Shown here one piece after another: positions 19,369 to 39,290 of a stretch of 64,000 nt of DNA. The notes under the pieces are model-generated. The model was not told where the DNA came from. It saw only the letters and a list, made by a program, of their open reading frames with translations, and did no database searches. The DNA is from Terribacillus sp. FSL K6-0262 (lineage in GTDB: Bacteria; Bacillota; Bacilli; Bacillales; Amphibacillaceae). The translations under genes were made by a program, and so were the position numbers. Position 1 is the stretch's first letter. The number at the start of each line of letters is the position of its first letter. The stretch spans positions 992,001-1,056,000 of the forward strand of contig NZ_CP150277.1 in assembly GCF_037977385.1 (NCBI RefSeq), read 5' to 3'.

Positions 19369-20664
19369 TCACCCGATACTGATCACTCCGAATAACAGTG
19401 CTGCAATGGTCATCACAATCGTGGAACCGAAGGCCCAAAGCATGGCATAACGCTGCAATTCCCCGAATTGGATACCCACCATTCCTATTAAAAGATGGGC
19501 GGCGGCAACAAGCGGACTTAACACATGCACCGGCTGGCCAAGTAATGCCGCCCGCCCGATTTCCACCTTGCTGACACCGTATGCCTGCGCAGCTTCGGCC
19601 AGGATCGGCAGCACCCCCAAATAGAATGCATTATTGGACATGAAGAAGGTAAATGGTGCACTGATGATGGCAACAATCACAGCCAAGTAAGGCGACATGA
19701 ACTCTGGGATGATGGAAACAAGTGTATTCGCCATTGCATCGATCATTTCTGTCCCGGACATGATACCGGTGAAGATCCCGGCAGCTATCACTATGGTTGT
19801 GACTGCCAATCCATTTTTGGCATGTGCCGCCATCCGTTCCTGCTGATCGCTCATACGCGGATAGTTGATCATCAAAGCTGCAGCGAAAGCGACCATGAAT
19901 AAGATGGTCAAGGAAATAAAATCAAGGATGAGGCAGACGAGCAATACAATAGTCAGTAACAAGTTGACCCAGACGAGCTTCGGTCTGCGATATGCAGGTA
20001 CTTCTTCCGCTGCAGAGATTTCCTGAACTGCTTGATTATCCAGCTGCGCGACTCCTAAACGCTTTCTTTCCCTTTTACCAAGGATGAATGCCACTGTAAG
20101 AGCGTAAACAAGTCCGACTGCCATCACCGGTATAACAGGAATGAAAAGCTCGGATGCTTCCAAATTCAATGCAGCCATTGTCATAGCAGAAGCACCGCCC
20201 CAAGGAGTGATGTTCATGACACCCATGGAAAGCATGGCGACCGTTGCCAGGATCAAGCGGTTCATGCCAAGCCGTTTGTAAAGCGGCAGCAGTGCTGAAA
20301 CAGTGATCATATAGGTCGTTGTACCATCCCCATCAAGGGCAACCATCATGGATAGGATGGATGTCCCGACAACGATTTTCATCGGATCACCCTTTACAAC
20401 CTTTAAGATGAAATTGATCAGCGGATCAAACAAACCAGCATCGATCATGACACCGAAGTAAAGAATGGCAAACAAAATCATGATCGCGGTAGCTGCAATT
20501 CCTTCGACACCCTCCAGCATCATAGGCCCCAGCGAAGTGGTGAAGCCCCCGATTATACCGAACAGGATCGGAATCAATGTCAACGCCACAAGCGGCGATA
20601 GCTTTTTTGACATGATCAAATACATGAATACGGCAACCATGGAGAATCCCAATAAAGATAACAA
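19369..20664 (-). CDS. citM: CitMHS-family metal-citrate transporter CitM
   Basis: A 431-residue secondary transporter for citrate complexed with Mg2+ or related metals. It has about twelve hydrophobic segments, with the family N-terminus (FMYLIMSKKLSPLVALTLIP) and GDGTTTYMITVSALLPLYKRL. The start is probably a TTG (20664 or 20667) placed five to eight bases after GGAGG; the ATG further upstream overlaps the cre box. It follows citS-citT on the same strand with 120 bases between, containing a hairpin and a cre box. Induction by citrate through CitST and repression by CcpA are expected. Confidence 0.9.
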   Translation of the reverse strand: MLSLLGFSMVAVFMYLIMSKKLSPLVALTLIPILFGIIGGFTTSLGPMMLEGVEGIAATAIMILFAILYFGVMIDAGLFDPLINFILKVVKGDPMKIVVGTSILSMMVALDGDGTTTYMITVSALLPLYKRLGMNRLILATVAMLSMGVMNITPWGGASAMTMAALNLEASELFIPVIPVMAVGLVYALTVAFILGKRERKRLGVAQLDNQAVQEISAAEEVPAYRRPKLVWVNLLLTIVLLVCLILDFISLTILFMVAFAAALMINYPRMSDQQERMAAHAKNGLAVTTIVIAAGIFTGIMSGTEMIDAMANTLVSIIPEFMSPYLAVIVAIISAPFTFFMSNNAFYLGVLPILAEAAQAYGVSKVEIGRAALLGQPVHVLSPLVAAAHLLIGMVGIQFGELQRYAMLWAFGSTIVMTIAALLFGVISIG

Positions 20665-20691
20665 CAAAAAGTCCTCCTTCAACAGCATGTT

Positions 20692-20705
20692 TGTTAGCGC
20701 TTTCA
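20692..20705. promoter_or_regulatory. cre box upstream of citM
   Basis: TGAAAGCGCTAACA (minus strand) matches the catabolite-responsive element consensus TGWAANCGNTNWCA at every position. It lies just upstream of the ribosome site, where bound CcpA would block transcription. Confidence 0.8.
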
Positions 20706-20733
20706 TTTGAAAGAAGTGTAACATTCCGTCCGC

Positions 20734-20767
20734 AAAATGCACAGTTTACTTACATTAAGTGCATTTT
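20734..20767. promoter_or_regulatory. inverted repeat between citT and citM
   Basis: AAAATGCAC (20734-20742) and GTGCATTTT (20759-20767) form an exact 9-bp inverted repeat with a 16-base loop. It could be a weak terminator of citST or a CitT binding site controlling citM. Confidence 0.5.
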
Positions 20768-20787
20768 TTTCATTTTTTTCACGAGGA

Positions 20788-21489
20788 TCAGGAAGAGTTT
20801 TTGGGTATGTATTTATACTTGCGCACTGGCCTTCCGACCGTTCCGTAGCTGATTTCCACCTCTGCTTCCTTTTTCGACACCATATACTCCAGGTATCGCC
20901 GGACCGTGGAATGACTTACTCCTACTTTCGCAGCTACTTCTTCCGCCTTTTCACTGGAGTGCTGCTCCTTCATCACCCGCCGGACCGACTCCAGGGTGTG
21001 CCGATCCACTCCTTTTGGATACACCTCGTGATCTGTTGTTTCTGCAGTATGTAAATTGGGATGGAAAAACGAATCCACTTCTTGCTGACCGACTTTATTG
21101 CCAGTCATCAGCTCTTTCTTATAGGAAGCATATTCTTTAAGCACCCGCTGGAACCGATCGCCATCGATCGGCTTGATCAAATAACTGTATACACCCCCGC
21201 GCATTGCCTCTCCCACTGTATTTGTATCATTCGCTGCCGTCAGCAGAATCACGTCCGTCCGGCGGGAATATCGACGGATGAACCAAAGGATTTCGATTCC
21301 ATTCATATCAGGCAGGTAGACGTCGAGCAGCACCAAGTCAGGCTGCAATACTCGAATCAGACTTTTCGCCTGTTCCCCATTTTCCGCGACCCCAGTCAGT
21401 CGGTATCCTTCCATCTGATTCAGGTAATTCTCGAATATGATCGATGCTTCCACATTATCTTCCACTATCAGGACATTCATCCGATCCAT
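20788..21489 (-). CDS. citT: CitT-like response regulator (CitB/DcuR type)
   Basis: A 233-residue regulator. The receiver domain has Glu10-Asp11, phosphoacceptor Asp56 in LVLLDVYLPDMNG and YLIKPID; the C-terminal part has a winged helix with KVGVSHSTVRRYLEYM. The long linker is typical of regulators paired with citrate/dicarboxylate kinases. The start at 21489 lies inside the end of the kinase gene, so the two overlap by 35 bases. It should activate citM. Confidence 0.9.
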   Translation of the reverse strand: MDRMNVLIVEDNVEASIIFENYLNQMEGYRLTGVAENGEQAKSLIRVLQPDLVLLDVYLPDMNGIEILWFIRRYSRRTDVILLTAANDTNTVGEAMRGGVYSYLIKPIDGDRFQRVLKEYASYKKELMTGNKVGQQEVDSFFHPNLHTAETTDHEVYPKGVDRHTLESVRRVMKEQHSSEKAEEVAAKVGVSHSTVRRYLEYMVSKKEAEVEISYGTVGRPVRKYKYIPKNSS

Positions 21490-23083
21490 TTTCCACGCTT
21501 CCTTTCGGGAGAACAACCGTCACAAGTGTGCCTCCTGCTTCGCTGTCTCCATAATACAAAGCTCCATTCATCTTTTCGAGCGCCGCTTGGACGATGGTCA
21601 GTCCGATTCCATGTTCTTCGCTCGTTTCCTGTTTGGTCGAATAACCATCAACCAAAATTGCTTGCTTTTCCTTATCAGACAGCCGCTTGCCATTATCCTC
21701 GATATCGAATATAACTTCTTCGCCTAAGTCCGTAAAAGAAACAAAGACTTTCCCTTCGGTACCCTGATACTTTGAAGCGGCCTCCAGTGCATTCTCCAGG
21801 ATATTGCCGATGATTGTCACGATTTTTTCTGTGGCTTCCGCTCCCAAATCAATATCCAGACTGCTGCTTTCATCGATTGTCAATGATACCTTCAGCTCTT
21901 TGGCACGATTGAATTTCCCCAATAAGGCTGCTGCAATCATTGGTTCTTTTATGCTGGTCATCAGTAAGTTGACAACACTCTGCTGCTCCTCCACTTCCTT
22001 TGAAATGAGTACCAGAGCTTTATCATATTCCTGCAGGCGGATCAAACCATATAATGTATTCAGCTTGTTCATGAATTCATGATTGGAAGCACGCATCTGA
22101 TCAGCTTGCTGCTTCATTTTTGCAATGGTCTCCGAGACATCTATCACTTCTGTTTCAGGACGCAATGTGAATACGACTCCCAATGTTTCCTCTGCTTCTT
22201 TTATCGGCGAAGCATCCACAATATAAATATCGCCTGCAACAAATGTATATTTGTTATATTTGCCTTGACCGTCTGCCAAAACCGCCTGATAAAGAGATTG
22301 CAGATTGGTCTGATCGATCGCATCCTCCAGAACAGACTTTTTCTTGAATATCTCCTTGGCCCTGCGATTGATCGACGTAATATGGCCTCTACGATCGATA
22401 GCGATGGTGGCATCCTTGATGGAAGCCAGTGTCGTCTCCTTTTCCTTGAACAAAAAGGATATCTCCCCAGGTTCCAGCCCATAAATCAGCTTCTTCACTC
22501 GCTTGGCCACAAGATAGGCGCCAACCAGCCCCAAAGCGAAAATGAGCACGAACCAGACAATCACTTCCTGCAGATATGAAACGATCTGGTGATTTAAGTT
22601 TTGCTTCAGAAAGCCGACGGATGCCACACCAATGATATCTCCGGCTTCATTCTTGATCGGGGTTTTCGCTTTTATGGCATAGCCCGAAATACCGTATCCT
22701 TCATAGATGACTTCCTGGCCTTCTTCCAAGACAGATTCATTGCTCGTCTTGGTCGGTTTCCCGATCCTCTCCGGTTCTGGATGCGAGATACGAATTCCTT
22801 CCGTATCAGCGATGACTACATAATCCGCTCCGCTGTTATGCTGGATTTTCAGCGATTCCTCCTGGATGATATCATCATTACTCCTATTCTCCAGGTGCTC
22901 CAGGATCGTTTCGTCCTTGGCTGCCAGTTTTGCGACAGCCATCGCCGTACTTCCGGCATCCTCCTCTACTATTTCATCTACCTTCCTCACGAATAGAGCG
23001 CTTACAAACAATAGACTCACTATCAGCAGAATGGCCACCAGCAGGACAATCTGACCGAGCAAGCCAAAACGGAATCCCCTCAT
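21455..23083 (-). CDS. citS: CitS-like sensor histidine kinase (CitA/DcuS family)
   Basis: A 542-residue membrane kinase. Transmembrane helices at about 11-32 and 173-195 flank an extracytoplasmic PAS-like/sCache domain (36-165) with HPEPERIGKPTKTS, the carboxylate-binding type. A cytoplasmic PAS domain (about 215-305) follows, then His335 in SNHEFMNKLNTLYGLI and an ATPase domain with ENALEAASK and EEHGIGLTIVQAAL. This architecture and the adjacent citM homologue make citrate the likely signal. Confidence 0.92.
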   Translation of the reverse strand: MRGFRFGLLGQIVLLVAILLIVSLLFVSALFVRKVDEIVEEDAGSTAMAVAKLAAKDETILEHLENRSNDDIIQEESLKIQHNSGADYVVIADTEGIRISHPEPERIGKPTKTSNESVLEEGQEVIYEGYGISGYAIKAKTPIKNEAGDIIGVASVGFLKQNLNHQIVSYLQEVIVWFVLIFALGLVGAYLVAKRVKKLIYGLEPGEISFLFKEKETTLASIKDATIAIDRRGHITSINRRAKEIFKKKSVLEDAIDQTNLQSLYQAVLADGQGKYNKYTFVAGDIYIVDASPIKEAEETLGVVFTLRPETEVIDVSETIAKMKQQADQMRASNHEFMNKLNTLYGLIRLQEYDKALVLISKEVEEQQSVVNLLMTSIKEPMIAAALLGKFNRAKELKVSLTIDESSSLDIDLGAEATEKIVTIIGNILENALEAASKYQGTEGKVFVSFTDLGEEVIFDIEDNGKRLSDKEKQAILVDGYSTKQETSEEHGIGLTIVQAALEKMNGALYYGDSEAGGTLVTVVLPKGSVENGSDECPDSGR

Positions 23084-23199: not shown

Positions 23200-23970
23200 T
23201 TATCTGCTTGTATATCCTGCATCGGCGTGAATCGTTGTTCCAGTCACATAGGATGACTGATCGGATGCCAGCCAAAGGCTTGCTTGCGCGATTTCTTCAG
23301 GCTGACCGAATCTGCCCAGCAGGCTGAGCTTCGGTGCAAATTCTTCTTCTGTCTGGCCGGTTTCCTCCAGAGATCCCCTTAGCATCGGTGTATCTATTGC
23401 TCCTGGAGCAACTGTGTTCACCCGGATATTCATCGGGCCATTTTCAAGCGCCGCCACTTTTGTCATGCCGACAACACCATGCTTAGCCGCAACATACGCG
23501 ATGTTATTCGGCTGCGGTCGGAAGCCGCTCACAGAGGAGATGTTGACGATACTGCCTCCTTCACCTTGCTTGATCATTTGCTGCAATTCATATTTCATAC
23601 AAAGTGCTGTACCTGTCAAATCCACTGCGATCAATCTATCCCAATATGCTTCATCGAATTCGGCTGCTGGTGCATTATCCGGTGTAAGGGCTGCGTTGTT
23701 GACGGCTGCATCCAGACGCCCGAACTTGGATACCGTTTCTTCCACCATATGTTTGACTTGTGCGGAATCGGAAACGTCGACTTTCACGAAATATGCTGTA
23801 CCACCAGCTGCTTCCATCTCCTTCACTGCAGCTCTGCCTTTTTCTTCATTGAAATCAGCTACGACGACTTTCGCTTTCGCTTCGGCGAATAGTTTCGCTG
23901 TTGCCAGCCCCATCCCCATTGCTGCACCAGTCACGATAGCTACTTTACCTTCCAATACTGGATATGTCAT
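23200..23970 (-). CDS. short-chain dehydrogenase/reductase
   Basis: A 256-residue classical SDR. The cofactor motif TGAAMGMG is at about 15-22, with the acidic VVADFNEE at the end of strand 2 favouring NAD(H); NNAALTP, the catalytic Ser in NISSVSG and the Tyr-Lys pair in AYVAAKHG complete the active site. GGGGGAATGGAAG precedes the ATG at 23970. It is divergent from a TetR regulator that probably controls it. The substrate is not identifiable. Confidence 0.9.
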   Translation of the reverse strand: MTYPVLEGKVAIVTGAAMGMGLATAKLFAEAKAKVVVADFNEEKGRAAVKEMEAAGGTAYFVKVDVSDSAQVKHMVEETVSKFGRLDAAVNNAALTPDNAPAAEFDEAYWDRLIAVDLTGTALCMKYELQQMIKQGEGGSIVNISSVSGFRPQPNNIAYVAAKHGVVGMTKVAALENGPMNIRVNTVAPGAIDTPMLRGSLEETGQTEEEFAPKLSLLGRFGQPEEIAQASLWLASDQSSYVTGTTIHADAGYTSR

Positions 23971-24063
23971 CTTCCATTCCCCCTTCATGTCCTACGCTTA
24001 CAATTCAAGAATAAAAGAGGCCGATTCACTCGGCAATATGCCATAATAGGGTTGGCGGATTAT

Positions 24064-24706: not shown

Positions 24707-24737
24707 AAAAGAGTGTACCCGCCGGGCACACTCTTTT
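24707..24737. terminator. bidirectional terminator between tetR and the SorC regulator
   Basis: Ten-bp arms AAAAGAGTGT and ACACTCTTTT around an 11-base GC-rich loop, with T6 on the plus strand. Confidence 0.8.
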
Positions 24738-24740
24738 TTA

Positions 24741-25676
24741 TTACTCCAACAGCATACGAGCTGTTGCATCGTCTGTGATCAAAACGTGGATCAACTCCGC
24801 GGCCAATGCCGCTTTGATTGCTTTGATCTTTTCCTGTCCGCTCGCCACTCCGATGACCAGGGGAATCTGCTTCACATGCTCCAAATCCATCGAAATCACT
24901 CTGTCATTCCAATCATTATCAGCAGCACGACCATTTTCCGTGATGAAATTGTAGCATATATCGCCTACGACATTTTCGTATTCGATGACGCCATTCGTCT
25001 GTTGAAGATAGGATTTCACCATCGTCGAATGTTCTGGTGTCCCGCCGATTCCAACCATTGCAATATCAGCTCTTGCCCCTGCTTCAAAGATGCCTTTAAT
25101 GGAAGATTGATTGACGATGATTTCTTTCGCTTCCTTGGAATCAACCAATACTGGGGCATGAAGCAGCTTACACTTTGCTTTCAGCACTTCCGCCAGCTTT
25201 GCAACGATTTGGTTCGCGTGGATATCGACCCGTTCATCCCCCATCCCCCCTACAAGGGGAATGAATTGAAGTTCCGGGAAATACTGACTGGATGCCATTG
25301 CTGTGGCAACCTCATACAATGTCGTACCGGAACTGATTCCGATCGTCTGTCCATTCCGAATCATACGGAGCAGATAGTTACTGGCAGCCGCACCCAATCG
25401 TGTTTTGGAATCATCACTCTCATTCGCTTCCACACAAATGACTTCCCGCAAGCCATACCGTTTTTCAACTTTCGACTCAAGTCCCGTATATGGATGATCA
25501 TCTTGCTCATGAATGATGATTTCGACGACTCCTGCTTCCCTGGCTTTCGTCAAATACTTGGAGATAAGCGACCTGCTGACTCCGATTGCCTTTGCAATTT
25601 CCGATTGTGTAGCGCCTTCTTCATAGTACATGTGGGCGATTTTCACCAAAAGTCTTCTATCTCCCAAAAGTGCCAT
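24741..25676 (-). CDS. SorC/DeoR-family sugar-phosphate-responsive regulator
   Basis: A 311-residue regulator of the SorC family. The HTH (about 24-45) reads TQSEIAKAIGVSRSLISKYL; the large C-terminal domain has the ISSGTTLYEVATAM, PLVGGMGDE and VGIGGTPEHSTM motifs of the sugar-phosphate-binding fold. It is the last gene of the polyol PTS operon, 50 bases after the EIIA gene, and so probably senses the phosphorylated substrate. Candidate operators are the ACATATGT-centred repeats upstream of the first gene of the operon. Confidence 0.9.
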   Translation of the reverse strand: MALLGDRRLLVKIAHMYYEEGATQSEIAKAIGVSRSLISKYLTKAREAGVVEIIIHEQDDHPYTGLESKVEKRYGLREVICVEANESDDSKTRLGAAASNYLLRMIRNGQTIGISSGTTLYEVATAMASSQYFPELQFIPLVGGMGDERVDIHANQIVAKLAEVLKAKCKLLHAPVLVDSKEAKEIIVNQSSIKGIFEAGARADIAMVGIGGTPEHSTMVKSYLQQTNGVIEYENVVGDICYNFITENGRAADNDWNDRVISMDLEHVKQIPLVIGVASGQEKIKAIKAALAAELIHVLITDDATARMLLE

Positions 25677-25726
25677 CCTACCACCCTATTCTGTGGTTTA
25701 GCATAAAATATGCATCTACCATTGTA

Positions 25727-26083
25727 CTATTTAAATGTAATTTTGCTACCTTCCTGAATGACAGGGAATGTATGCGGGCTTGCAAATACAGCACCCGGCA
25801 GCACTTCCGCTTCCGGTTCCGTGAAATAGATCGAGATATGCCCCAATGTTTGCAGATTCTCATTCGCAGCCGAACCTACCTTTTCAATCAGGAACTCCTG
25901 TCCATCTATGATCAAGGTACCGCCTTCCTTGATCGCATTGTCTTCTTCCGCTTGTTCCACTTGATGCAGGAACGAGATTTCCTTCAATTCAGCGGGGGCT
26001 TCCATGCCGAAAAGAATGACGATTTTATCTGCTTCAAAAGCCTGCGCCATCGGCCCGATTTCCTTCACTATTGTTTGGTACAT
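25727..26083 (-). CDS. srlB: PTS glucitol/sorbitol-family EIIA component
   Basis: A 118-residue cytoplasmic phosphocarrier that passes phosphate from HPr to EIIB. The active histidine is His40 in ISFLHQVEQ, at the family position. The length equals SrlB/GutB. TAAGGAGGAAAATC sets the start, and it follows the EIIBC gene by 11 bases. The family assignment is firm; the sugar is not necessarily sorbitol since the operon lacks the usual dehydrogenase. Confidence 0.92.
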   Translation of the reverse strand: MYQTIVKEIGPMAQAFEADKIVILFGMEAPAELKEISFLHQVEQAEEDNAIKEGGTLIIDGQEFLIEKVGSAANENLQTLGHISIYFTEPEAEVLPGAVFASPHTFPVIQEGSKITFK

Positions 26084-26094
26084 GATTTTCCTCC

Positions 26095-27108
26095 TTAATA
26101 CATGCCAAAGCTGGCAAAGTAAGCAATGATAACCGCTAAGACTCCTGTGATCAATCGGCTGTACAAGACAGCCGGAACACCATACTGGACTGTTTCCGGC
26201 TTTGCTTCACCCAAGGACAGCCCTACGGGTACAAAATCTGCACCAACTTGCCCATTTATCGCAAATAATGCCGGCAGTGCAAATTGCGGCGGGATATTGC
26301 CCAATGCAATCTGGCTGCCGATCAATACCCCGATTACTTGGGCAATTACCGCACCCGGACCAAGCACAGGTGACAGGAATGGCAGCGTACAGATAATGAC
26401 GATGACGATCAATCCCCAGATCGAACTTGCAAGCGGTGACATCGTGTTAGCAATCAAGTCCCCGATTCCGGTGTAATTGATGATTCCGATCAGCATGCTC
26501 ACAAACGCCATGAAAGGAATGATATTTTTAATCAGCATTTCGATGGAATCCCGTCCTGCTTGATAAAATATCCCTGTCACTTTCCCGATACCCTTGGAAA
26601 AGCGCATCAGCCAGTTATCATCATTGGAACGATGCTCTTCCTTCACTTTCTCATACTCTTCCCTGAATTCTTTCTTATCGGCAGTATTGAATCTCCCTGC
26701 GTCTTCCGCAGCGGCCGAAGCCTGCTCCTGTGCTTCACCTTCCGCAAGAGCTACCTCTTTCGGTGTGACACCTGACACGAAGATATCCTCTTTGATATGT
26801 TTCGCCAAAGGACCGGATGGGGAGGAACCCAGAATATCGACAGTCGGAATACGTTTCATTGGGTAAAGCCCAATTCTGGCCGTTCCACCGCAATCGATGA
26901 CCACGCACATCATCTCGTCCTCAGGTACTGAATTCTTAAAGCCATCCACCGCTTGGGCCCCGGTCAGCTCAGCTATTCGTTCCGCTACAGGGTGAATTCC
27001 CCCGCCCGTAATCGAGACTACTTTCGTTTTCTTGCCTTTCGGTTCAATCCGGAGGCCGGTTCCCCATCCGCCGGATCCTTTGCTGACAAACACTGCTTTA
27101 TATCCCAT
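26095..27108 (-). CDS. srlE: PTS glucitol/sorbitol-family EIIBC component
   Basis: A 337-residue membrane protein with a cytoplasmic EIIB part (about 1-110: [13 protein letters not shown] and [15 protein letters not shown], with the Cys of CGGTARIG as phosphoacceptor candidate) and a C-terminal EIIC2 part with several membrane helices ([20 protein letters not shown]). This split matches SrlE. It lies 17 bases downstream of the EIIC1 gene and 11 bases upstream of the EIIA gene, all on one transcript. Confidence 0.92.
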
Positions 27109-27125
27109 GCTGATTCCCTCCAGTA

Positions 27126-27641
27126 TTACATTCTTTTCATCAGGAATTTCGTGATTTGTTCCGTCATAAGTCCCCTGATCAGCATCACAACGATCCCGAC
27201 CAAGAAGAAACGAACTGCCAGTTCAGATGTCGAGTAGCCAGCTTGTGTCAATCCGTTGGCAATACCCAAGTAGACAAATAGCTCCCCGGCATTTGCATAT
27301 GGGAACAAGGCTGTTACCGGATGCAAAAATGAAACGAGCGAATCAAAGAATGCCGGTTTCTGGCGCTCCTCGACAAAACGGCCGAATGTATATGCCATTG
27401 GATTTGTCAGGAGCAAAATGGATAGCATCGGCATCACTGTATAACGCAGCAAAGCATATTTGGAGGTGAATCGAATCGCCTTTGTCACACGATCCTCACC
27501 AATGAATTTGATTAGTGCATAAGTAAAGGTCAGCAATACTACCAAAGTCGGTACTATGCCGGTGATGAGACTCATGAATTGCTCTCCGCCAGCATTGAAC
27601 ATGCCGATGAAATGCTCACCGAACCACTGAATCCATTCCAT
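27126..27641 (-). CDS. srlA: PTS glucitol/sorbitol-family EIIC component
   Basis: A 171-residue integral membrane permease subunit. The N-terminal amphipathic helix [20 protein letters not shown] followed by four helices matches SrlA. The ATG at 27641 is eight bases after GGGGAG; a GTG nine bases upstream is a weaker option. It forms the transport channel together with the EIIC2 part of the next gene. Confidence 0.9.
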
Positions 27642-27656
27642 GTCTTCCACTCCCCA

Positions 27657-28076
27657 TTATGAGATGGATGCCAATCTCTTCGTCTTCGAGATGGACATCA
27701 AAGCTTGTTCACCGGCAGCCTGCAAAGCTGTTTGCAGTGCCGACAGCTTTCTTTTTCCCGCTGGACTGTACAGTTCGTCCAGCAGCTCCCCCAGCTGCAT
27801 TCCTTCATATTGCTTCATTTCTTTGAAAGTCGACAGGATACTGATTCCGCGCATCACCTGGCACTCTTGAATTACATAGGATTCATCCACCACGAGCAGG
27901 ACAATCGATCCTGGACCGATACGGCGGCGTGATTGCCCCGAAAATAGGTGGAAGCCCTTTTCCCCTTTATATTTACCGACTAATTTCTTCATTGATTTTT
28001 GATAATAGTGAACTTGAATGGCAGTCAGGGCCGATTGGACAATCAGCAAACAGCAAGCAACCAATACTAACTTCAT
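27657..28076 (-). CDS. gutM: GutM-family glucitol operon activator
   Basis: A 139-residue protein with one N-terminal membrane helix (about 1-18, KLVLVACCLLIVQSALTAI) and a small cytoplasmic domain with VLLVVDESYVIQECQVMRGI. GutM was named as an activator of the E. coli glucitol operon; how it acts is unclear. Here it sits between the dehydrogenase gene and the PTS genes. GGGAGGATGACAAG sets the start at 28076. The in-frame upstream extension overlaps the previous gene and is unlikely. Confidence 0.88.
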   Translation of the reverse strand: MKLVLVACCLLIVQSALTAIQVHYYQKSMKKLVGKYKGEKGFHLFSGQSRRRIGPGSIVLLVVDESYVIQECQVMRGISILSTFKEMKQYEGMQLGELLDELYSPAGKRKLSALQTALQAAGEQALMSISKTKRLASIS

Positions 28077-28092
28077 CTTGTCATCCTCCCTG

Positions 28093-29349
28093 TCATTCAG
28101 CGAATAAGTGATCCTGAAGCGACCGAAGCTTCCAGACGGTAGTGGACATATCAAGTTCCACATCGTCCAATGTCAGGAACCGGCCTTCATCGATTGCTCT
28201 CTTAGCCACTACATTCCCGCTGATCAAACCGATTGGGATATGGCCATTCACTTTCATGTCCTGATGTGTTTCCAGCATCCCACGGACACTATAGCCGCCG
28301 ATGCCATCAAGTCTTTCGCCCGGCTTGATCGGACGTTTTGCAACAGCAACAGTTTCAGAAACCGGCGCACCAAGCGGGTGGATGGAAGTATCATGGTGAA
28401 GCACTGCTTTGGCAATAGTGATCGGCGTCTCAAGGCTTGCAAGGTGATACGGACGATATAATGTATAATGCGGACCATGATCGGAATCCACTTTCAACAA
28501 ATAACGTAATTCCTCATCCACTGGCTCCAATTCACTCTTCACGATCACGAATACACCTGGCGCCAACCCGTTCACATATTCCACGACGCCTAATGAATCA
28601 AGCACCCCGCCATTTTCTTTCAAGTCCAGTTTCTTCGCTACATCATCAAGTCCAGCATCTACACCATGCATGCCGACTTTATCCGGTATGAGACCTATTG
28701 CATTACTCAGCAAGTTCATCTCAGCCATCGTTTTTGTTCCGTCTTGGAATGCTGCCAGCATATGCGCACTCATATTCTTCCGCTTTGCTTCTTCCGCACA
28801 TGTATCCGGATTTGCAGTAGGCTTCAGCGCATTATTTTTTCCTTTGCCGGCCACAACAACCTCCAGCCCCATCGTTTTCGCGAATTCATATAACTCCACG
28901 ATTGCTGCTGGCTCGTCCCCAGCCGAACCGGAATATACCAAACCCGCATTATCAAACATACGATGCATATAGGAGCCGATTGTAATATCAACCTCGACAT
29001 TCAAAAGAACCAGGTGCTTTTTGGAACGAAGTGCTTCCAAGGCAATATTGGCACCGACCTCCGGTACACCTGTAGCATCCACTACAACTTCTACCGTACT
29101 GGATTGAATGATTGCCCGGTAATCAGAGGAGACTACTGTCCCTGCCTTTCTGTTTTCCTGAGATTGATAGAAATCCCTGGCTCTCTCCGCATTGGCAATA
29201 TTCACATCACAAATTCCGCCGACAACCATCCCAGGAATCCTTGAAATTTGGGAGATAAGCCCGAAGCCCATTTGTCCAGCTCCGATTACACCTACTTTGA
29301 TTGGCTGCAATTGTTTATCTCTTTCTTGTAGTTCTCGATAAATGGACAT
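28093..29349 (-). CDS. NAD(P)-dependent oxidoreductase with C-terminal SAF domain
   Basis: A 418-residue protein built like a homoserine-dehydrogenase-type Rossmann oxidoreductase (VGVIGAGQMGFGLI at about 19-32; EVVVDATGVPEVGA) followed by a C-terminal SAF domain (about 325-410, AVAKRPIKPGERLDGIGGYS). GAAGGAGGAGCAGGAT sets the start. It is the first gene of the glucitol-family PTS operon and holds the place where SrlD (sorbitol-6-phosphate dehydrogenase) would be expected. I infer that it oxidises or rearranges the imported polyol phosphate, but this is not shown by the sequence. Confidence 0.8.
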   Translation of the reverse strand: MSIYRELQERDKQLQPIKVGVIGAGQMGFGLISQISRIPGMVVGGICDVNIANAERARDFYQSQENRKAGTVVSSDYRAIIQSSTVEVVVDATGVPEVGANIALEALRSKKHLVLLNVEVDITIGSYMHRMFDNAGLVYSGSAGDEPAAIVELYEFAKTMGLEVVVAGKGKNNALKPTANPDTCAEEAKRKNMSAHMLAAFQDGTKTMAEMNLLSNAIGLIPDKVGMHGVDAGLDDVAKKLDLKENGGVLDSLGVVEYVNGLAPGVFVIVKSELEPVDEELRYLLKVDSDHGPHYTLYRPYHLASLETPITIAKAVLHHDTSIHPLGAPVSETVAVAKRPIKPGERLDGIGGYSVRGMLETHQDMKVNGHIPIGLISGNVVAKRAIDEGRFLTLDDVELDMSTTVWKLRSLQDHLFAE

Positions 29350-29394
29350 ATCCTGCTCCTCCTTGAATGCGTTTTCATATTTAAGCAAAAAATG

Positions 29395-29450
29395 ATGAAC
29401 ATATGTCACTACATTTCATATACGTTCAATAAATGTAACATATGTTACAA
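29395..29450. promoter_or_regulatory. three spaced ACATATGT-like repeats, candidate SorC operator
   Basis: A perfect 16-bp palindrome TGTAACATATGTTACA lies at 29434-29449. Related sites TGAACATATGTCAC (29396-29409) and CATATACGTTCA (29417-29428) lie about 39 and 20 bp away, i.e. close to whole helical turns. They sit downstream of the operon promoter, where a SorC tetramer could repress. Confidence 0.6.
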
Positions 29451-29479
29451 TTAATATCATTTGTTAATTCTTGATTGTT

Positions 29480-29508
29480 ATTGTATTATCTGTTGTAAGC
29501 GTTGTCAA
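29480..29508 (-). promoter_or_regulatory. promoter of the polyol PTS operon
   Basis: TTGACA (29503-29508) and TACAAT (29480-29485) are 17 bases apart on the minus strand. The -35 overlaps a cre box. Confidence 0.8.
29494..29507. promoter_or_regulatory. cre box overlapping the polyol PTS promoter
   Basis: TGTAAGCGTTGTCA matches TGWAANCGNTNWCA at every position and covers part of the -35 and spacer, so CcpA should compete with RNA polymerase. Confidence 0.8.
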
Positions 29509-30845: not shown

Positions 30846-31712
30846 TTACTTCAAGACCAGGGTACGATCCTCGACATTCATAAAAATACTGATTTTATGT
30901 TTGACAATTTCTTTTACTGCCTGATTACATGGAATCACATTATGCCGCAGCGACTTTGTCTCTTTTGTTTCCCCGAATGTTTCTTTTGCTTTTCTCGTCC
31001 ATGCCACCAATAGTTCCGTACCTACATTGAATTTTCGAATACCGCTATTGATCAGTTCCGGGATATCACGTTCATTCACACCTGTTCCGCCATGAATCAC
31101 CAATGGCACATCCACTGCTGCATTTATCTCCTTCAGCAATGGAAGATTTACGTCTGTCTTGGATTTATATTGGCCATGATTTGTACCGATAGCAACGGCT
31201 AACGCGTCTACTTTAGTCGCTTTGACAAATTCCACAGCATCTTTTGGATCCGTATATACCTTATCATCATCTCCAACATGGATCCCTTCCTCCGTTCCTC
31301 CGATGGTACCAAGCTCTCCTTCTACGGAAACTCCATGTTCATGCGCATATTCGACTACTGCTCGCGTCTTCATGATGTTCTCCTTCAGCGGCAGATGAGA
31401 GCCGTCAAACATAACGGATGTATAGCCTTTATCGATAGCCTCCTTGATATCATCGAAATTCCTTGCGTGATCCAAATGCAATACCACATCCACCATTTCC
31501 TTTGTCGCCATGGACTTGCATACTGCAACGAAGTTTTCATGACCAATGTATTTCGCCGTATCTATGCTTGTTTGAATAATGATCGGCGATCCTTGCTCCT
31601 TTGCCGCGCGTATCATATCAGGCAGCATTTCCAAATTGTGTGCATTGAAGGCACCCACTGTATAGTTAAGTTCCTCCGCCCTGCTCGTAACTTCTTTTAA
31701 AGTAGTGTACAT
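30846..31712 (-). CDS. class II (zinc) aldolase, fructose/tagatose-bisphosphate aldolase family
   Basis: A 288-residue metal-dependent aldolase. The zinc ligands are seen in LHLDHARNF, in VAIGTNHGQYK and in VIHGGTGVNERD; the phosphate-binding loops GGTGV and FNVGTEL are present. The family includes FbaA, GatY and KbaY. Its place behind PTS genes suggests cleavage of a phosphorylated sugar into dihydroxyacetone phosphate and an aldehyde, with a substrate matching the transporter. GGGAGCGGTGAAGC precedes the ATG. Confidence 0.88.
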   Translation of the reverse strand: MYTTLKEVTSRAEELNYTVGAFNAHNLEMLPDMIRAAKEQGSPIIIQTSIDTAKYIGHENFVAVCKSMATKEMVDVVLHLDHARNFDDIKEAIDKGYTSVMFDGSHLPLKENIMKTRAVVEYAHEHGVSVEGELGTIGGTEEGIHVGDDDKVYTDPKDAVEFVKATKVDALAVAIGTNHGQYKSKTDVNLPLLKEINAAVDVPLVIHGGTGVNERDIPELINSGIRKFNVGTELLVAWTRKAKETFGETKETKSLRHNVIPCNQAVKEIVKHKISIFMNVEDRTLVLK

Positions 31713-31736
31713 GCTTCACCGCTCCCTTAGTAATAT

Positions 31737-32144
31737 TTATCGAACGCCTCGTGCAACATCCTTGGAGACCTGCATCATCCGATCCATTTTATCGAGATAG
31801 ATCTGCAGCGATTCTTCATCATTTGCTTTTGCTGCCTCTGCTCGCTTCTTGTTATATAAACTCAATAGTTTTTTATATCCATCGCCGACTGATTTCTCTA
31901 TTTGAATACTTTTTTCAAAGGCAGCGATTGCGCGATCATCATCCCCGAGCCTTGAATAGGCTTTACCGATTTCTTCAAGGATTTTTGCTTGTTCCCCTTC
32001 AGAAGCCTGATCGAGTTCTTGTTCTTTTGAAGAAATGGAAAACAATATTTGTTCTTTCTCTTCTGGAGTCAAAACGGGGGCGTCTTCCTTTTGCGCATCT
32101 TTTTTGGGATTTTTGTCTTTTTTCCTGCCAAAACCAAACATCAT
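31737..32144 (-). CDS. small TPR-like protein in the PTS operon
   Basis: A 135-residue charged cytoplasmic protein. After a lysine-rich N-terminus (GFGRKKDKNPKKDAQKED), residues about 55-105 form a tetratricopeptide-like repeat pair (EEIGKAYSRLGDDDRAIAAF, EKSIQIEKSVGDGYKKLLSL). No catalytic motif is seen. GGAGGTAGAT precedes two adjacent ATG codons (32144, 32141). It lies between the EIIC gene (17 bases away) and the aldolase gene (24 bases), so it is part of the pathway operon, maybe a scaffold. Function unknown. Confidence 0.75.
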   Translation of the reverse strand: MMFGFGRKKDKNPKKDAQKEDAPVLTPEEKEQILFSISSKEQELDQASEGEQAKILEEIGKAYSRLGDDDRAIAAFEKSIQIEKSVGDGYKKLLSLYNKKRAEAAKANDEESLQIYLDKMDRMMQVSKDVARGVR

Positions 32145-32161
32145 ATCTACCTCCATTTATT

Positions 32162-33451
32162 CTAAAAAGCTTTTAGAAGCGGACCAATGAGCCATGCATA
32201 CAGCAGAGCAGCTGCTACTGTATCGACATCGGTCGCAGTTGCATTAACAAAGCCCATGGAATTGAATATCGTTACCAGCAGCGCTGGCAAGAGCGTGATG
32301 AAGAACCCGTGTGCCACACCGCCAATGACCGCACCACGTCGTCCGCCAACCTGATTTCCGAATATTCCGGCAGTTCCGCCCGCAAAAAAGGCTGTCAGCA
32401 TCCCTGGCAGAATCATAGCCAGCCCGAATACCGGCAGTACGAACATTGCAAGGACACAACCGATGGTCGTTGTAATAAACCCTACAATGACAGCATTGGG
32501 ACTGTACGGAAACAGCACTGGACAATCCAAGGCTGGCTTGGCATTTGGAACCAGTCGCATTGCAATGCCGCGGAATGCTGGAACAATTTCACCCAGCAGC
32601 AAACGGACCCCTGCTAATAGCACGTACACTCCTACTACAAATTGAATCGCCTGAAGAAAGGCAAACATCAAATAATGCGTCCCACCTGCCAATGCAGAAG
32701 AAAATTCCGGTCCGGCAAACGCTGCTGTGATGATATAGAGCGGAACCATCACTACCATTACGGACAGATAGGTATCCTGCAAAAACTCGAATTGGGCTGG
32801 GAGCTTTAAATCCTCCACCGATTTTTTCTTTTCACCTTTTTCCCCGAATACCTTGGCAACACCTGCTTCGAACACATAGCCCACTGTACAAAAATGTCCC
32901 AAAGCGATGTCATCCGAGCCGGTGATTTTACGGACGAATGGCTGCGCAATTGCCGGCATGGCAACCGCAAAGACACCGCCAATGAATCCCCCTGTCAATA
33001 TCAAAGCAATCCCGCGTAATCCAGCAAAGTATCCAAACACGGTTGTCATGGTAGCCATCCAAAGGATCGCCTGACCTGTTAAAAAGATATATTTCCACCT
33101 CGTGAACCGGGCAATGATAATGTTAAAGATGAAGATCGCCAGAAAAGTCAATGCAATATCCCGGCCCAAGCCTAATTCATTCATGGCTTGACCATTAATG
33201 GCTTCAATCGAAGGGACAATACCCTGCATTTGGAATCCTTCTGCGAATATCTTGCCGAAATATGTCAGACTCCCGACAATGATACTTGAACCGGCAGCCA
33301 ATACCATGAAACCCAGCATTGTTTTTAATGAACCGGATATCACCTGACCAGCAGATTTTTTTTGCAGAATCAAACCCAGCATAGCAATCAATGCTATCGT
33401 GACAGATGCCTGAGTCAAAATGTTCTCGATAATAAAATTGATAACACCCAT
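32162..33451 (-). CDS. PTS EIIC component, ascorbate (UlaA/SgaT) family
   Basis: A 429-residue membrane permease with about eleven helices. The N-terminus (FIIENILTQASVTIALIAML then LILQKKSAGQVISGSLKTML) and the KYIFLTGQAILWMATM region are characteristic of UlaA/SgaT, the L-ascorbate PTS family. The downstream aldolase and kinase are not the usual ascorbate-6-phosphate lactonase/decarboxylase set, so the sugar is likely different. It works with the EIIB protein encoded just upstream. GAGGGAGGAAGGCAGCAA sets the start. Confidence 0.85.
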   Translation of the reverse strand: MGVINFIIENILTQASVTIALIAMLGLILQKKSAGQVISGSLKTMLGFMVLAAGSSIIVGSLTYFGKIFAEGFQMQGIVPSIEAINGQAMNELGLGRDIALTFLAIFIFNIIIARFTRWKYIFLTGQAILWMATMTTVFGYFAGLRGIALILTGGFIGGVFAVAMPAIAQPFVRKITGSDDIALGHFCTVGYVFEAGVAKVFGEKGEKKKSVEDLKLPAQFEFLQDTYLSVMVVMVPLYIITAAFAGPEFSSALAGGTHYLMFAFLQAIQFVVGVYVLLAGVRLLLGEIVPAFRGIAMRLVPNAKPALDCPVLFPYSPNAVIVGFITTTIGCVLAMFVLPVFGLAMILPGMLTAFFAGGTAGIFGNQVGGRRGAVIGGVAHGFFITLLPALLVTIFNSMGFVNATATDVDTVAAALLYAWLIGPLLKAF

Positions 33452-33487
33452 TTGCTGCCTTCCTCCCTCGCTCTGTCTGTTTTATAC

Positions 33488-33796
33488 TTAAGCCAAGACT
33501 CCTTTTTCCTTCAGTACCGGCGTGATTTTTTCTTCGATTTCTTGTTTGGATACAATGTTCCTTAAATAAACGATTCTTGTTTGCTGAGGATCGATGGTGA
33601 ATTTCTCGAATTGTGATTGAAAGTTCTGTGCCGTGATGATGATATCCGGCTTTGCCGAAGCAGCTGAAGATATATCCCCATGATCCAATCTGGCCTCGAT
33701 TCCTAACTTAGTCAACACATCCTCTGCCGCCATTTGACATGCAAAACTGCTTCCCAATCCAGCCCCGCAAACAAATAGAATACTTAATTTTTTCAT
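33488..33796 (-). CDS. PTS EIIB component (UlaB/GatB type)
   Basis: A 102-residue cytoplasmic EIIB protein. The phospho-accepting cysteine is Cys10 in LFVCGAGLGSSFA. Length and fold match UlaB/GatB. It accepts phosphate from an EIIA; the only EIIA-like domain in this operon is the C-terminal domain of the upstream regulator. It is 36 bases upstream of the EIIC gene. Confidence 0.9.
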   Translation of the reverse strand: MKKLSILFVCGAGLGSSFACQMAAEDVLTKLGIEARLDHGDISSAASAKPDIIITAQNFQSQFEKFTIDPQQTRIVYLRNIVSKQEIEEKITPVLKEKGVLA

Positions 33797-33814
33797 GAAA
33801 TCTTCTCCCTTTTT

Positions 33815-35923
33815 TTAATAGTTTTTTTGACTTCCATAAAGCACCTTGTTAAACGTCTCTATATTTTGTGCTGCTATCAATCTCTTGACTTTTTCTTCAT
33901 CATTTATCAAATCAATCAAATTTCTCATGATATTCAAATGCGAATAAGAATCGACGGCAGCCAGACAAAATACAAGCCGTACCGGATCATTATCTGGATT
34001 GCCAAAATACACTGGGTCCTTTAACGACATAACGCTGACACCCAATTTATTCACTCCGTCTTCCGGCCTCGCATGTGCTAAAGCCAAATGCTTGCCAACA
34101 ACAATATAAGGTCCATATTCCTCTACAGATTTAATCATGGCAGTTATATAACTTGCTTCAATTGCTTCTTCCTCCATCAAAAGATCGGCTGCCTTAGTGA
34201 TAGCTTCTTTCCAGTCTTTACATGCTTGATTCAATAAAATATTGGAGTTTTTCAGGATATCCTGTAGCATTGGCTGTATCTCCCTCGTATTAATTTTCAA
34301 ATGGTGATTCTTAAAAGTCTCTTCTGCTTTCTGGTAGCTTTCTTTGGTCACTTTGCCGCCGCTGTCAATGATCAACTTCAAGATATCCTGCATCAGTTCG
34401 GTAGCATCTAAGTTGGTAGAAATCATCCTTCGCTTATCCTTATTTTTACGCAGGAATGAGTCTATTTCTTTTTTATCGCTTTCCCTCAGGATCGGATTGA
34501 GTACCAATAATGGTTTTTTCCGATAATCGATAGGAATGGTAGTGAAAACCAAATCCACATCCAGCTTGTCGATGAAGCTTACTTCATGTGAGCTCAATAC
34601 AGCAACAATGTCTATGTCAAAATGCTCTTTCAGATTGGCGGCCAGTAGTCTTCCCGTTGAAAGCCCATGGCTGCAAAGCACAACAGCCTGATATACTGTG
34701 CGTTTCTCCTGCTTCATCCAGCTGGCAGAAGTTGAAAAGTAAACAGTCAAAAATCCTATCTCGTCTTCTGATAATGGCTTCTTTGTATGTTCCTCGATTT
34801 GCTTCTTAAAGCATGTCACTGCCTCATAGATTTCGGCATAAGATGCTTTTATCGTATCTTTCAAAGGATTGGTAGCTTGAATGTCGTTCTTGGATCGACT
34901 CAATAAACCTGTGATATGTTTATATAATCCTTCATATAATTCGTCCTCCCGCTGTGAAAAGGGAATACCGGTTATTTTCTCCACATGCTCAATTAATTGG
35001 ATGGCCAGCAGTTGTGCAGTAATCCAATCAATTGAGTTGTTCATATCTTTCGGGTTGAATGATTCTATGGCGAGTGTGATATAATCCATTTCGATCAATG
35101 GCGGATCCAGATCGAAATCCCTGCAGAGTGAACCAATGAGATCCCTGATAGGTCCTTCCTTTATCCTGTTTTTGACTTTTGCCGACTCACTTAAAGTATT
35201 TCTTTCTTGCATGCGGCGCAGCCAAATACCTAAAAATAAAATGACTTGGTTCCGATACATGTAATTGACTTCCATCTGCGACTTTACCAGGATTTCATCA
35301 TAAAGCTCGGTAATGATACCGATAGCTTTTGGATTTAAATAATCAATTACCACTTGTTCCAAGGCCGACACTGCAACTTCTGGATTTTGGACACGAAACA
35401 AGGCATCAATATCCGTCATGCTGCTAATGACCCTGTATAACATCGACCTTATCGATCGTTCATCCCCTTGTAAAACCATGCCCTGCTTCGGAAAGCTCAC
35501 TACCGATATCCCATGATTTTTTAAGAACAAACGAAGCCTCCTCATATCTTCATCCAATGTACTCTTTGAAACCTGAAGCTTCTCTTCCATTTCATAAAGG
35601 AATGTAGTGTTCAATGGATTTACAATGTCCAAAAGCAGCGCAAGAAAACGTTCATTTGGACGGTAATAATCAAAGGTCCTATCGTCTCCTATTTTTATCA
35701 GCAAATCTTCACGTTCCTTGGCAGAGAGGCTTAATTTAAATCCCTTTCCCCTTACTGTCTTTATTGGCGGATAACCATTTTCAGCCAAAAAGCTATTAAT
35801 CAAGGCCATTTCATTTCTCACGGTACGTTCACTAATCAAGAACTCTGTACTTAAATCCTTACAGGTCAAAAAGGAATTAACGGAAGAAAATCTAGTGAGT
35901 AATCTTTGAGTCCTTTCTTTCAT
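33815..35923 (-). CDS. PRD-containing transcriptional regulator with EIIB-like and EIIA domains (BglG/MtlR/LicR type)
   Basis: A 702-residue regulator. Domains in order: N-terminal DeoR-like HTH and Mga-like HTH (about 1-165), PRD1 (about 180-290) and PRD2 (about 295-400), a GatB-like EIIB domain (about 410-495, VVLCSHGLSTGRLLA) and a C-terminal EIIA(Fru/Mtl) domain (about 555-700, with the His in VVGKHLALAHARPEDGV). It heads the operon, so it likely controls its own PTS genes. As no separate EIIA is encoded, its EIIA domain may also feed EIIB. DNA-binding activator action is more likely than antitermination, since no RAT/terminator leader is seen. Confidence 0.9.
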   Translation of the reverse strand: MKERTQRLLTRFSSVNSFLTCKDLSTEFLISERTVRNEMALINSFLAENGYPPIKTVRGKGFKLSLSAKEREDLLIKIGDDRTFDYYRPNERFLALLLDIVNPLNTTFLYEMEEKLQVSKSTLDEDMRRLRLFLKNHGISVVSFPKQGMVLQGDERSIRSMLYRVISSMTDIDALFRVQNPEVAVSALEQVVIDYLNPKAIGIITELYDEILVKSQMEVNYMYRNQVILFLGIWLRRMQERNTLSESAKVKNRIKEGPIRDLIGSLCRDFDLDPPLIEMDYITLAIESFNPKDMNNSIDWITAQLLAIQLIEHVEKITGIPFSQREDELYEGLYKHITGLLSRSKNDIQATNPLKDTIKASYAEIYEAVTCFKKQIEEHTKKPLSEDEIGFLTVYFSTSASWMKQEKRTVYQAVVLCSHGLSTGRLLAANLKEHFDIDIVAVLSSHEVSFIDKLDVDLVFTTIPIDYRKKPLLVLNPILRESDKKEIDSFLRKNKDKRRMISTNLDATELMQDILKLIIDSGGKVTKESYQKAEETFKNHHLKINTREIQPMLQDILKNSNILLNQACKDWKEAITKAADLLMEEEAIEASYITAMIKSVEEYGPYIVVGKHLALAHARPEDGVNKLGVSVMSLKDPVYFGNPDNDPVRLVFCLAAVDSYSHLNIMRNLIDLINDEEKVKRLIAAQNIETFNKVLYGSQKNY

Positions 35924-38962: not shown

Positions 38963-38989
38963 GATTGTTACCCCCTTGATGTTCTCCAG

Positions 38990-39290
38990 CATTTTTCCAA
39001 AGAAAAAGCCTTCCGTCTCATCTCCATCCGAGGATGGAAAAGAGACGGAAAGCTTCTTTGCTTTCCGCGGTACCACTCTTATTGGTTCTATCAAACCCGC
39101 TCTTCACCTTATAACGAAGGTGACTCGTCAAAACCTAAGGAAAATATCCCTCAGTCCTGCTGCTCCAGGGTGAGTTCGAAAATGCATAGTCTGCGTTTCA
39201 CCAATCCGCAGCTCTCTAAGGCTATGCCAATCTTTCTACTACTCCCATTCGTCGCTTTTATTAAAATATTTCGGTCAATTTTGAATTAAT
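38990..39290 (-). promoter_or_regulatory. T-box riboswitch, predicted Leu (CUC) specifier
   Basis: On the minus strand the leader has Stem I with AGTA and AGAGAGCTGCGGATTGGTG-type elements, a lower helix GCATAG/CTATGC, a specifier loop GAA-CTC-ACC with the CUC codon at 39172-39174, and the T-box antiterminator sequence AAGAGTGGTACCGCGG at 39065-39080. A terminator hairpin follows. The codon points to tRNA-Leu(GAG). Confidence 0.92.
38997..39055 (-). terminator. T-box leader terminator
   Basis: A long hairpin with outer arms TTCCGTCTC/GAGACGGAA and an inner CCATCC/GGATGG, followed by GGCTTTTTC on the minus strand. It is mutually exclusive with the T-box antiterminator. Confidence 0.85.

Follow-up and report, generated by a model that had tools for sequence, protein, structure and literature searches.

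The window analysed here, a 64,000-nucleotide stretch of the genome of Terribacillus sp. FSL K6-0262 (contig NZ_CP150277.1, positions 992,001 to 1,056,000), carries on its minus strand a six-gene operon that combines a glucitol-type phosphotransferase system (PTS) with an oxidoreductase of the DRL/DXR-II family. Enzymes of this family interconvert 1-deoxyxylulose 5-phosphate (DXP) and 2-C-methylerythritol 4-phosphate (MEP). On balance, we infer that the operon serves the SorC-repressed, CcpA-controlled uptake of a branched tetritol, most probably 2-C-methyl-D-erythritol. The glucitol-type PTS would import 2-C-methylerythritol as MEP, and DRL, run in reverse, would oxidise MEP to DXP; it is from MEP as the PTS product that the identity of the imported polyol would follow. 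The operon, the family membership of its products, their conserved sites, and the gene associations described below were established by computation.

The six genes run from position 29349 down to 24741, all on the minus strand, with intergenic gaps of 6-50 bp. The first (28096-29349; 417 aa plus stop from an ATG, with an alternative longer GTG start at 29409) encodes the putative NAD(P)-dependent DRL/DXR-II-type oxidoreductase with its C-terminal SAF domain. It is followed by genes for a GutM-like protein (27657-28073; PF06923, E 2.7e-24; alternative longer ATG start at 28163), the EIIC component (27126-27650; EII-GUT, PF03608, E 6.6e-76), the EIIBC component (26095-27108; EIIBC-GUT N- and C-terminal domains, PF03612 and PF07663), the EIIA component (25727-26083; PTSIIA_gutA, PF03829, E 6.7e-37), and a SorC/DeoR-type sugar-binding transcriptional regulator (24741-25676; Sugar-bind, PF04198, E 5.4e-65). 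All of the glucitol/sorbitol PTS domains (EII-GUT, EIIBC-GUT, and PTSIIA_gutA) were thus found by Pfam within the operon, and profile searches of the whole Terribacillus genome returned a single EII-GUT match and a single DRL_cat match; B. subtilis, one of the control genomes, matched neither profile. An earlier note, made from the letters of this stretch, had proposed precisely such a single operon, and the gene calls, gaps, and Pfam domains confirm it. An inverted repeat at 24709-24740, read by eye and absent from the list of a computed scan, is a likely bidirectional terminator between the SorC gene and a convergent TetR gene. An Rfam scan gave no match at the operon.

The oxidoreductase displays NAD-binding, DRL_cat (PF21135, E 3.5e-60), and SAF (PF08666) domains in the order typical of DXR-II, and its residues 3-416 match PDB chains 3UPL and 3UPY (E 6e-98), the latter being the Brucella abortus DXR-II (PMC3847144). 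Judged by its sequence, it is a member of the type-II DXP reductoisomerase family, and this predicted identity, which the earlier note had missed, limits the possible chemistry to reactions of the reductoisomerase type. According to the accessible text of PMC3847144, the DXR-II clade comprises 53 sequences, 11 of which make MEP as judged by complementation; one of the 11 is a Finegoldia enzyme whose source strain showed no other MEP genes. Sequences from Listeria, B. pumilus, B. halodurans, and C. difficile are also listed, and the Listeria and B. pumilus members already figure there as DXR-II. The words 'PTS' and 'sorbitol' are absent from the main text of that paper. The window enzyme shares the domain order of the Brucella type and nearly full-length similarity with it; however, DXR-II is treated there (in the portion available) as an isoprenoid enzyme, whereas the window enzyme is encoded in a PTS operon.

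Nineteen positions could be mapped from part of the position list in PMC3847144, which, as far as the accessible text goes, separate DXR-II from DLO1/DLO2 or bind substrate or fosmidomycin. The window protein is identical to Brucella at 18 of them, including G121, K191, K193, T229, H250, R320, and V351 (Brucella numbers), with position 297 (Glu for Asp) as the sole mismatch. An alignment of 92 DRL rows was then compared (67 near the window's, 21 more distant, and four of biosynthetic context; 8 of 99 rows with identical C-terminal parts were merged, and the divergent L053 and the very long-branched L156 were excluded from residue counts). G99, K169, K171, T207, R299, and F156 are invariant in all 92 rows, while V330, E152, and Y301 vary. 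Every one of the 92 rows has Asp at position 48, where the second Rossmann strand ends; in the NADPH-type site of the Brucella chain, which reads S54-A55-R56-R57, Ala55 followed by two Arg stands where the window enzyme has Asp48. An Asp at this place favours NAD+, and Asp48 thus suggests a preference for NAD+ that would fit an oxidation.

These invariant residues bear on one alternative, in which DRL is a simple NAD-dependent dehydrogenase of some other tetritol or pentitol phosphate that leaves the skeleton unchanged, with the DXR activity of its relatives being secondary. In its favour, the N-terminal domains are common to homoserine-dehydrogenase-like oxidoreductases (Pfam here; PMC3847144, accessible part), and three operon-holding genomes were found without DXR-I or IspG. 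The invariance of G99, K169, K171, T207, and R299 in every row argues against it, as do nested relatives (described below) that appear to be the only DXR in their genomes. This alternative retains a minor share of our confidence.

The association of DRL with the PTS is widespread in Bacillota. Among 397 genomes of the window's order, DRL_cat is present in 59 and EII-GUT in 58, and the DRL_cat genes fall into two score classes, 42 high (at least 190 bits) and 23 low. The earlier note had proposed a genome-neighbourhood search for SAF-domain oxidoreductases next to SrlA/E/B, and that search bears out the link: 39 of the 42 high-class DRL genes have one of 63 near-full EII-GUT genes no more than 15 kb away, five short fragments among the 68 EII-GUT matches having been left out of this count. 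The exceptions are G260:C18, with an EII-GUT fragment 1.5 kb away at a contig end, G260:C19, near a contig start, and G228, which holds a divergent DRL. At the level of genomes, all 40 with a high-class DRL also have EII-GUT, compared with 18 of 357 others. A further set of 79 named loci was taken from the best 80 of 514 relatives and so leans towards close kin; at least three of the four PTS genes lie within 7 kb of DRL in 62 of them. The low-class genes form a second DRL_cat subfamily in the order, mostly of about 390 aa, and none of the 23 lies near a glucitol PTS, as judged by EII-GUT.

This recurrent neighbourhood leaves scarcely any credence for the proposal that DRL serves isoprenoid synthesis as a second DXR and stands beside the PTS by chance. 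The window genome does also have DXR-I, a pattern termed class B in the accessible text of PMC3847144. Yet the pairing holds for 39 of 42 high-scoring genes of the order, and the cre box and SorC-type operators described below fit catabolism. Furthermore, the operon occurs in E. innesii, O. polygoni, and B. mellifer, in whose genomes (completeness not stated) neither DXR-I nor IspG was found, making isoprenoid supply an unlikely role for it there.

Beside glucitol PTS genes, DRL and the short-chain dehydrogenases/reductases (SDRs) of the SrlD type replace each other. Eighteen of the 23 DRL-less PTS loci were inspected (G260:C6, G053:C10, G303:C70, G014:C54, and G257:C41 were left out); 17 carry an SrlD-type SDR, with 25-62% identity to E. 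coli SrlD, and none carries DRL. Conversely, the open reading frames of 97 DRL loci and the window yielded nine SrlD matches, and only five lie within about 5.2 kb of DRL, in L121, L124, L090, L084 (a 127-aa piece), and the window. This replacement upholds the view of the earlier note that a SAF-domain enzyme takes the place of SrlD.

The permease follows the same division. A tree of 95 EIIBC rows places 74 of the 76 DRL-linked ones, including that of the window, on one side of a branch with support 97/78; 18 rows of the SDR group (E. coli SrlE among them) share another side with the two remaining DRL-linked rows (100/97), and the window EIIBC thus does not group with SrlD-linked permeases. 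L155, a row labelled SDR although its locus showed no SDR, has a long branch and belongs to neither group. The two stray DRL-linked rows, L080 and L082, come from an additional PTS cluster that adjoins the DRL operon; in these loci, the EIIBC encoded after DRL falls in the main DRL-linked group. The agreement between the permease split and the exchange of DRL for SDR argues that transporter and enzyme changed together. The earlier claim that the substrate is not sorbitol draws support from both observations, which leave the actual substrate a matter of inference. In both L080 and L082, which are from Enterococcus, the second glucitol-type PTS adjoins the DRL operon, and three more genes resemble, by eye, a kinase, isomerase, and aldolase of deoxypentose/methylthioribose salvage.

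The same data weigh on the proposal that this is an ordinary sorbitol operon, whose sorbitol 6-phosphate is oxidised by DRL itself or by an SDR encoded elsewhere, such as that at 23200-23988. Its PTS genes do resemble those of known sorbitol systems: E. coli srlAEBD-gutM-srlR and the glucitol-type gutFRMCBA of Pediococcus (PMC5723342, as far as accessible) encode GutM, EIIC, EIIBC, and EIIA of the same Pfam families, and the window EIIC (NF049923, TIGR00821) and EIIBC (NF049924) exceed the NCBIfam cut-offs for glucitol/sorbitol transporters. EIIBC, GutM, and EIIA, however, fall below the cut-offs of TIGR00825, NF007592, TIGR00849, and NF007696. Unlike glucitol/sorbitol operons, that of the window is without SrlD, having DRL instead, and it combines a SorC-type regulator with an EIIBC from the separate group. 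The statement in the earlier note that no sorbitol-6-phosphate dehydrogenase is encoded in the operon holds for gene calls, Pfam, and a search with E. coli SrlD alike. That query did match 34 SDRs in the window genome, a point in favour of the sorbitol proposal; the best three are 30-34% identical. The SDR at 23200-23988 was considered as a hidden SrlD and discarded; it shows 28-30% identity, ranks 15th of the 34, and lies beyond the opposing TetR gene.

A related operon has been called a sorbitol operon in Listeria, where EIIA, EIIBC, GutM, a SAF-domain protein, and a sugar-binding regulator are named from LMOf2365_0571 onwards (PMC11176438, accessible text). That text reads the operon as leading from sorbitol to fructose 6-phosphate and, in the part available, names no gene for a sorbitol-6-phosphate dehydrogenase. 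Two other Listeria species (L085 and L086) carry the gene set SorC-DRL-GutM-EIIC-EIIBC-EIIA. Given the SrlD-type SDRs of 17 of 18 DRL-less loci, against five near DRL across 97 DRL loci and the window, sorbitol is a very improbable substrate, and the sorbitol-operon reading was rejected on the permease split and the lack of SrlD.

The strongest sign of activity on DXP and MEP comes from one group of relatives. In a tree of 94 DRL rows, sequences from Levyella, Murdochiella, Kallipyga, and a metagenome-assembled genome of Peptoniphilaceae form a clade (88/93) nested among PTS-linked rows. Each of these four genomes (completeness not stated) has one DRL and IspG; DXR-I was found over the cut-off in none of them, with one match at 18.8 bits. 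Three of the four loci have ispF at most 2.4 kb from DRL, and two of these also have ispD at most 3 kb away; Pfam identified IspD and IspF near DRL in L109 and L111 and IspF in L114, at distances of 0.7-3 kb, and isp neighbours were not identified in L108. All four rows of the clade keep 65 of 71 conserved catalytic-domain positions. Taken together, the DRL of this clade probably acts on DXP/MEP. Thermovorax and Anaerococcus have two DRLs each, and DXR-I was not found in them; they are therefore uninformative on single enzymes. The second DRL of Thermovorax (L157, genome G407) is accompanied by a transaldolase and, by eye, a galactitol-type PTS, two Zn-dehydrogenases, and an EI-like gene.

The fate of the proposed DXP may be read from the genes that accompany DRL. 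The commonest companions encode E1-alpha, E1-beta, E2, and E3 subunits (named from the domains of the copies in L039), at least two of which lie within 9.5 kb in 30 of the 79 named loci. The DRL-linked E1-alpha forms a subfamily of its own, with 63-100% identity to the query compared with at most 57% for the other listed matches. It was delimited at 458 bits or more (the next match scores 376), a cut set at the gap after the list had been seen. Of the 40 DRL genomes, 34 have this subfamily, as do 3 of the 357 others (Fisher p 1.6e-39, uncorrected for kinship); because scoring covered just five candidates in most genomes, an occasional copy may have been missed. A copy lies no more than 15 kb from DRL in 27 of the 37 genomes; in seven DRL genomes (five of the genus of the B. 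pumilus-group loci, G205, and G260) the subfamily is found at another place or on a different contig. The three genomes with E1 and no DRL are G210, which is 62% complete, G211, whose gene is 63% identical and has a different neighbourhood (L166), and G155, which is 95% complete.

Pyruvate and acetoin dehydrogenase complexes consist of the same E1-alpha, E1-beta, E2, and E3 domains, and DXP is an acyloin, like acetoin. By similar acyloin-type chemistry, the DRL-linked complex, dependent on thiamine pyrophosphate, may split DXP at C2-C3 with CoA to acetyl-CoA and glyceraldehyde 3-phosphate. A mutated pyruvate dehydrogenase E1 (aceE) lets E. coli make DXP (PMC3424233, accessible text), which suggests that such an E1 may be brought to handle the C2-C3 bond of DXP. 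The E1 complex may be replaced in certain lactic and halophilic relatives by a class II aldolase, a triose-phosphate isomerase (TIM)-like isomerase, and a YjbQ protein. Here, the carbonyl of DXP might be moved from C2 to C4, and aldol cleavage of the same bond would then give dihydroxyacetone phosphate and acetaldehyde. At least two of these three genes are found in 11 of 79 loci, and L112 has both sets.

Genes of pentose metabolism near DRL raise a different possibility, that of apiitol (2-C-hydroxymethyl-erythritol). The PTS would yield apiitol 4-phosphate, which DRL in reverse would convert to D-xylulose or D-ribulose 5-phosphate for the pentose phosphate pathway. The reaction is of the same type as that between MEP and DXP and needs no extra enzyme, which would suit the six-gene operon of the window and of the B. 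pumilus group. A transketolase lies near DRL in L076, L098, L102, L106, and others, a transaldolase in some loci, and an RpiB-like gene (L054 and L106, by eye) or a phosphoketolase (L093, opposite strand) elsewhere. The co-occurrence of E1-E2-E3 and the ispF/ispD context of the nested relatives would nevertheless go unexplained, and the family members that have been assayed act on DXP (PMC3847144, accessible part). We regard apiitol as an unlikely substrate.

Several observations also count against 2-C-methylerythritol. Neither downstream set is nearby in 39 of the 79 named loci, and a transketolase within 9.5 kb (8 of 79) or a transaldolase (9 of 79) would fit a pentulose 5-phosphate product equally well. 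No E1-alpha of the subfamily was found in the window genome, one congener (G392), G348, or G338, all of which have the DRL-PTS pair, and a search of the window genome that included no positive control gave no TIM-like match. The E1-type matches of the window genome (35, 33, and 26% identity) look, by eye, like a branched-chain keto acid dehydrogenase, a pyruvate dehydrogenase, and a split transketolase. In this organism, either the common pyruvate dehydrogenase acts on DXP, or DXP serves other needs, or the product differs; this last step is the main gap, and for that reason we rate 2-C-methylerythritol only a little above even. Locus L162 of G304 (B. pumilus group), the only one inspected of the five genomes of that genus with a distant E1-alpha, places the E1 complex with a galactitol-type PTS and a Zn-dehydrogenase, and without DRL. 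Within the enzyme, H228 (Brucella H250) is His in only 79 of 92 rows, and V351 (Brucella number) varies, some other residue being more frequent than Val in each of the two large groups. Asp48 also occurs in the four rows of biosynthetic context and hence cannot settle the direction of the reaction. Lastly, the DXR equilibrium favours MEP, and reverse flow would need a strong pull.

Some further genes near these systems may be mentioned. A Cys-rich protein of 109-115 aa forms a cluster found near DRL in 23 loci, with examples near DRL or the E1 complex at L127:10390-10737, L162:14752-15081, and L157:8945-9283; the L162 and L157 copies were assigned by eye, and the L127 copy has no Pfam match at 1e-5. 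By eye, L161 (G000:C1:1078100-1080800) joins genes for the N- and C-terminal halves of a split transketolase to those of an SDR and an MFS-type transporter, and looks like a further sugar system. The class II aldolase of the window (30846-31712) was considered as part of the system and set aside; it clusters loosely with DRL-linked aldolases but adjoins an ascorbate-type EIIC.

Upstream of the operon, a promoter-like site, TTGACA-17-TACAAT, lies on the minus strand at 29508-29480 and has 11 of 12 consensus matches. It is the best of nine promoter-like sites in the stretch, a count that is not significant given 8.3 in shuffles. Within it, at 29494-29507, lies a catabolite-responsive element (cre box, the site of CcpA) that perfectly matches the cre consensus, TGWNANCGNTNWCA; three perfect cre boxes were found in the window against 0.21 expected. 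Further downstream, a palindrome, TGTAACATATGTTACA, at 29434-29449 is the probable SorC site, and its centre is a copy of ACATATGT (29438-29445). A second operator, ACATATGT, follows at 29399-29406, 39 bp from the upstream copy, and the window holds six copies of this motif against 0.71 expected. The consensus promoter, perfect cre box, and spaced operators described in the earlier note were accordingly recovered.

The operator motif recurs in relatives. Exact ACATATGT is present in 20 of 91 DRL upstream regions, the window included (200 shuffles: mean 0.62, largest 3), and exact or one-mismatch copies in 56 (mean 15.1, largest 25). In 31 of the 91 regions, two such copies stand 19, 37-39, or 58 bp apart (mean 0.09, largest 2), the spacings having been picked after 30 of the regions had been viewed. 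In that 30-region subset, which includes the window, 12 regions have an exact copy and 28 an exact or one-mismatch copy, the exceptions being L039 and L069. Within the 260 bp examined in this subset, a perfect cre is found only in the window, its congener L048, and L089. The SorC regulator probably binds the ACATATGT/TGTAACATATGTTACA operators.

Elsewhere in the window, minus-strand genes at 30846-33796 and 33815-35923 encode a class II aldolase, an ascorbate-type EIIC, and, by eye, EIIB-like and 702-aa regulator-like proteins; the region 30846-35923 is probably another PTS operon next door. On the other flank, minus-strand sensor kinase and response regulator genes at 19369-23083 adjoin a gene for a 457-aa transporter-like protein, with a perfect cre at 20692-20705, and resemble, by eye, a citrate-type two-component system. 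A T-box leader (39038-39261, minus strand; Rfam RF00230, 120 bits) lies upstream of a permease-like gene (37616-39094, by eye).

More speculatively, the operon may represent the entry into isoprenoid biosynthesis run backwards, from 2-C-methylerythritol to MEP, on to DXP by an NAD+-dependent DXR-II, and then to cleavage by a DXP-specific complex or by isomerases and an aldolase. We tentatively propose that DXR-II was originally catabolic in Bacillota and was later recruited for isoprenoids, which would explain its patchy distribution. In the open literature (subscription journals were mostly outside the search), no report was found, among the papers listed, of a link between DXR-II and the PTS or of growth on 2-C-methylerythritol; those listed for apiitol, for the biodegradation of methyltetrols, and for methylerythritol combined with the PTS showed no such operon, and 'DXR-II' together with 'sorbitol' gave no match. 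2-C-Methylerythritol is a large component of isoprene-derived aerosol. The compound and its glucosides also occur in plants (PMC11192765, accessible text). For DXR-II, the accessible part of PMC13001223 states no defining pattern of occurrence beyond overrepresentation among certain pathogens. If our reading is correct, many Bacillota would carry 'sorbitol' operons under a wrong name, and the scattered presence of DXR-II would have a simple reason. It would also supply a candidate enzyme complex for the cleavage of DXP, and a gene set with which the bacterial use of 2-C-methylerythritol, a plant metabolite, could be tested.

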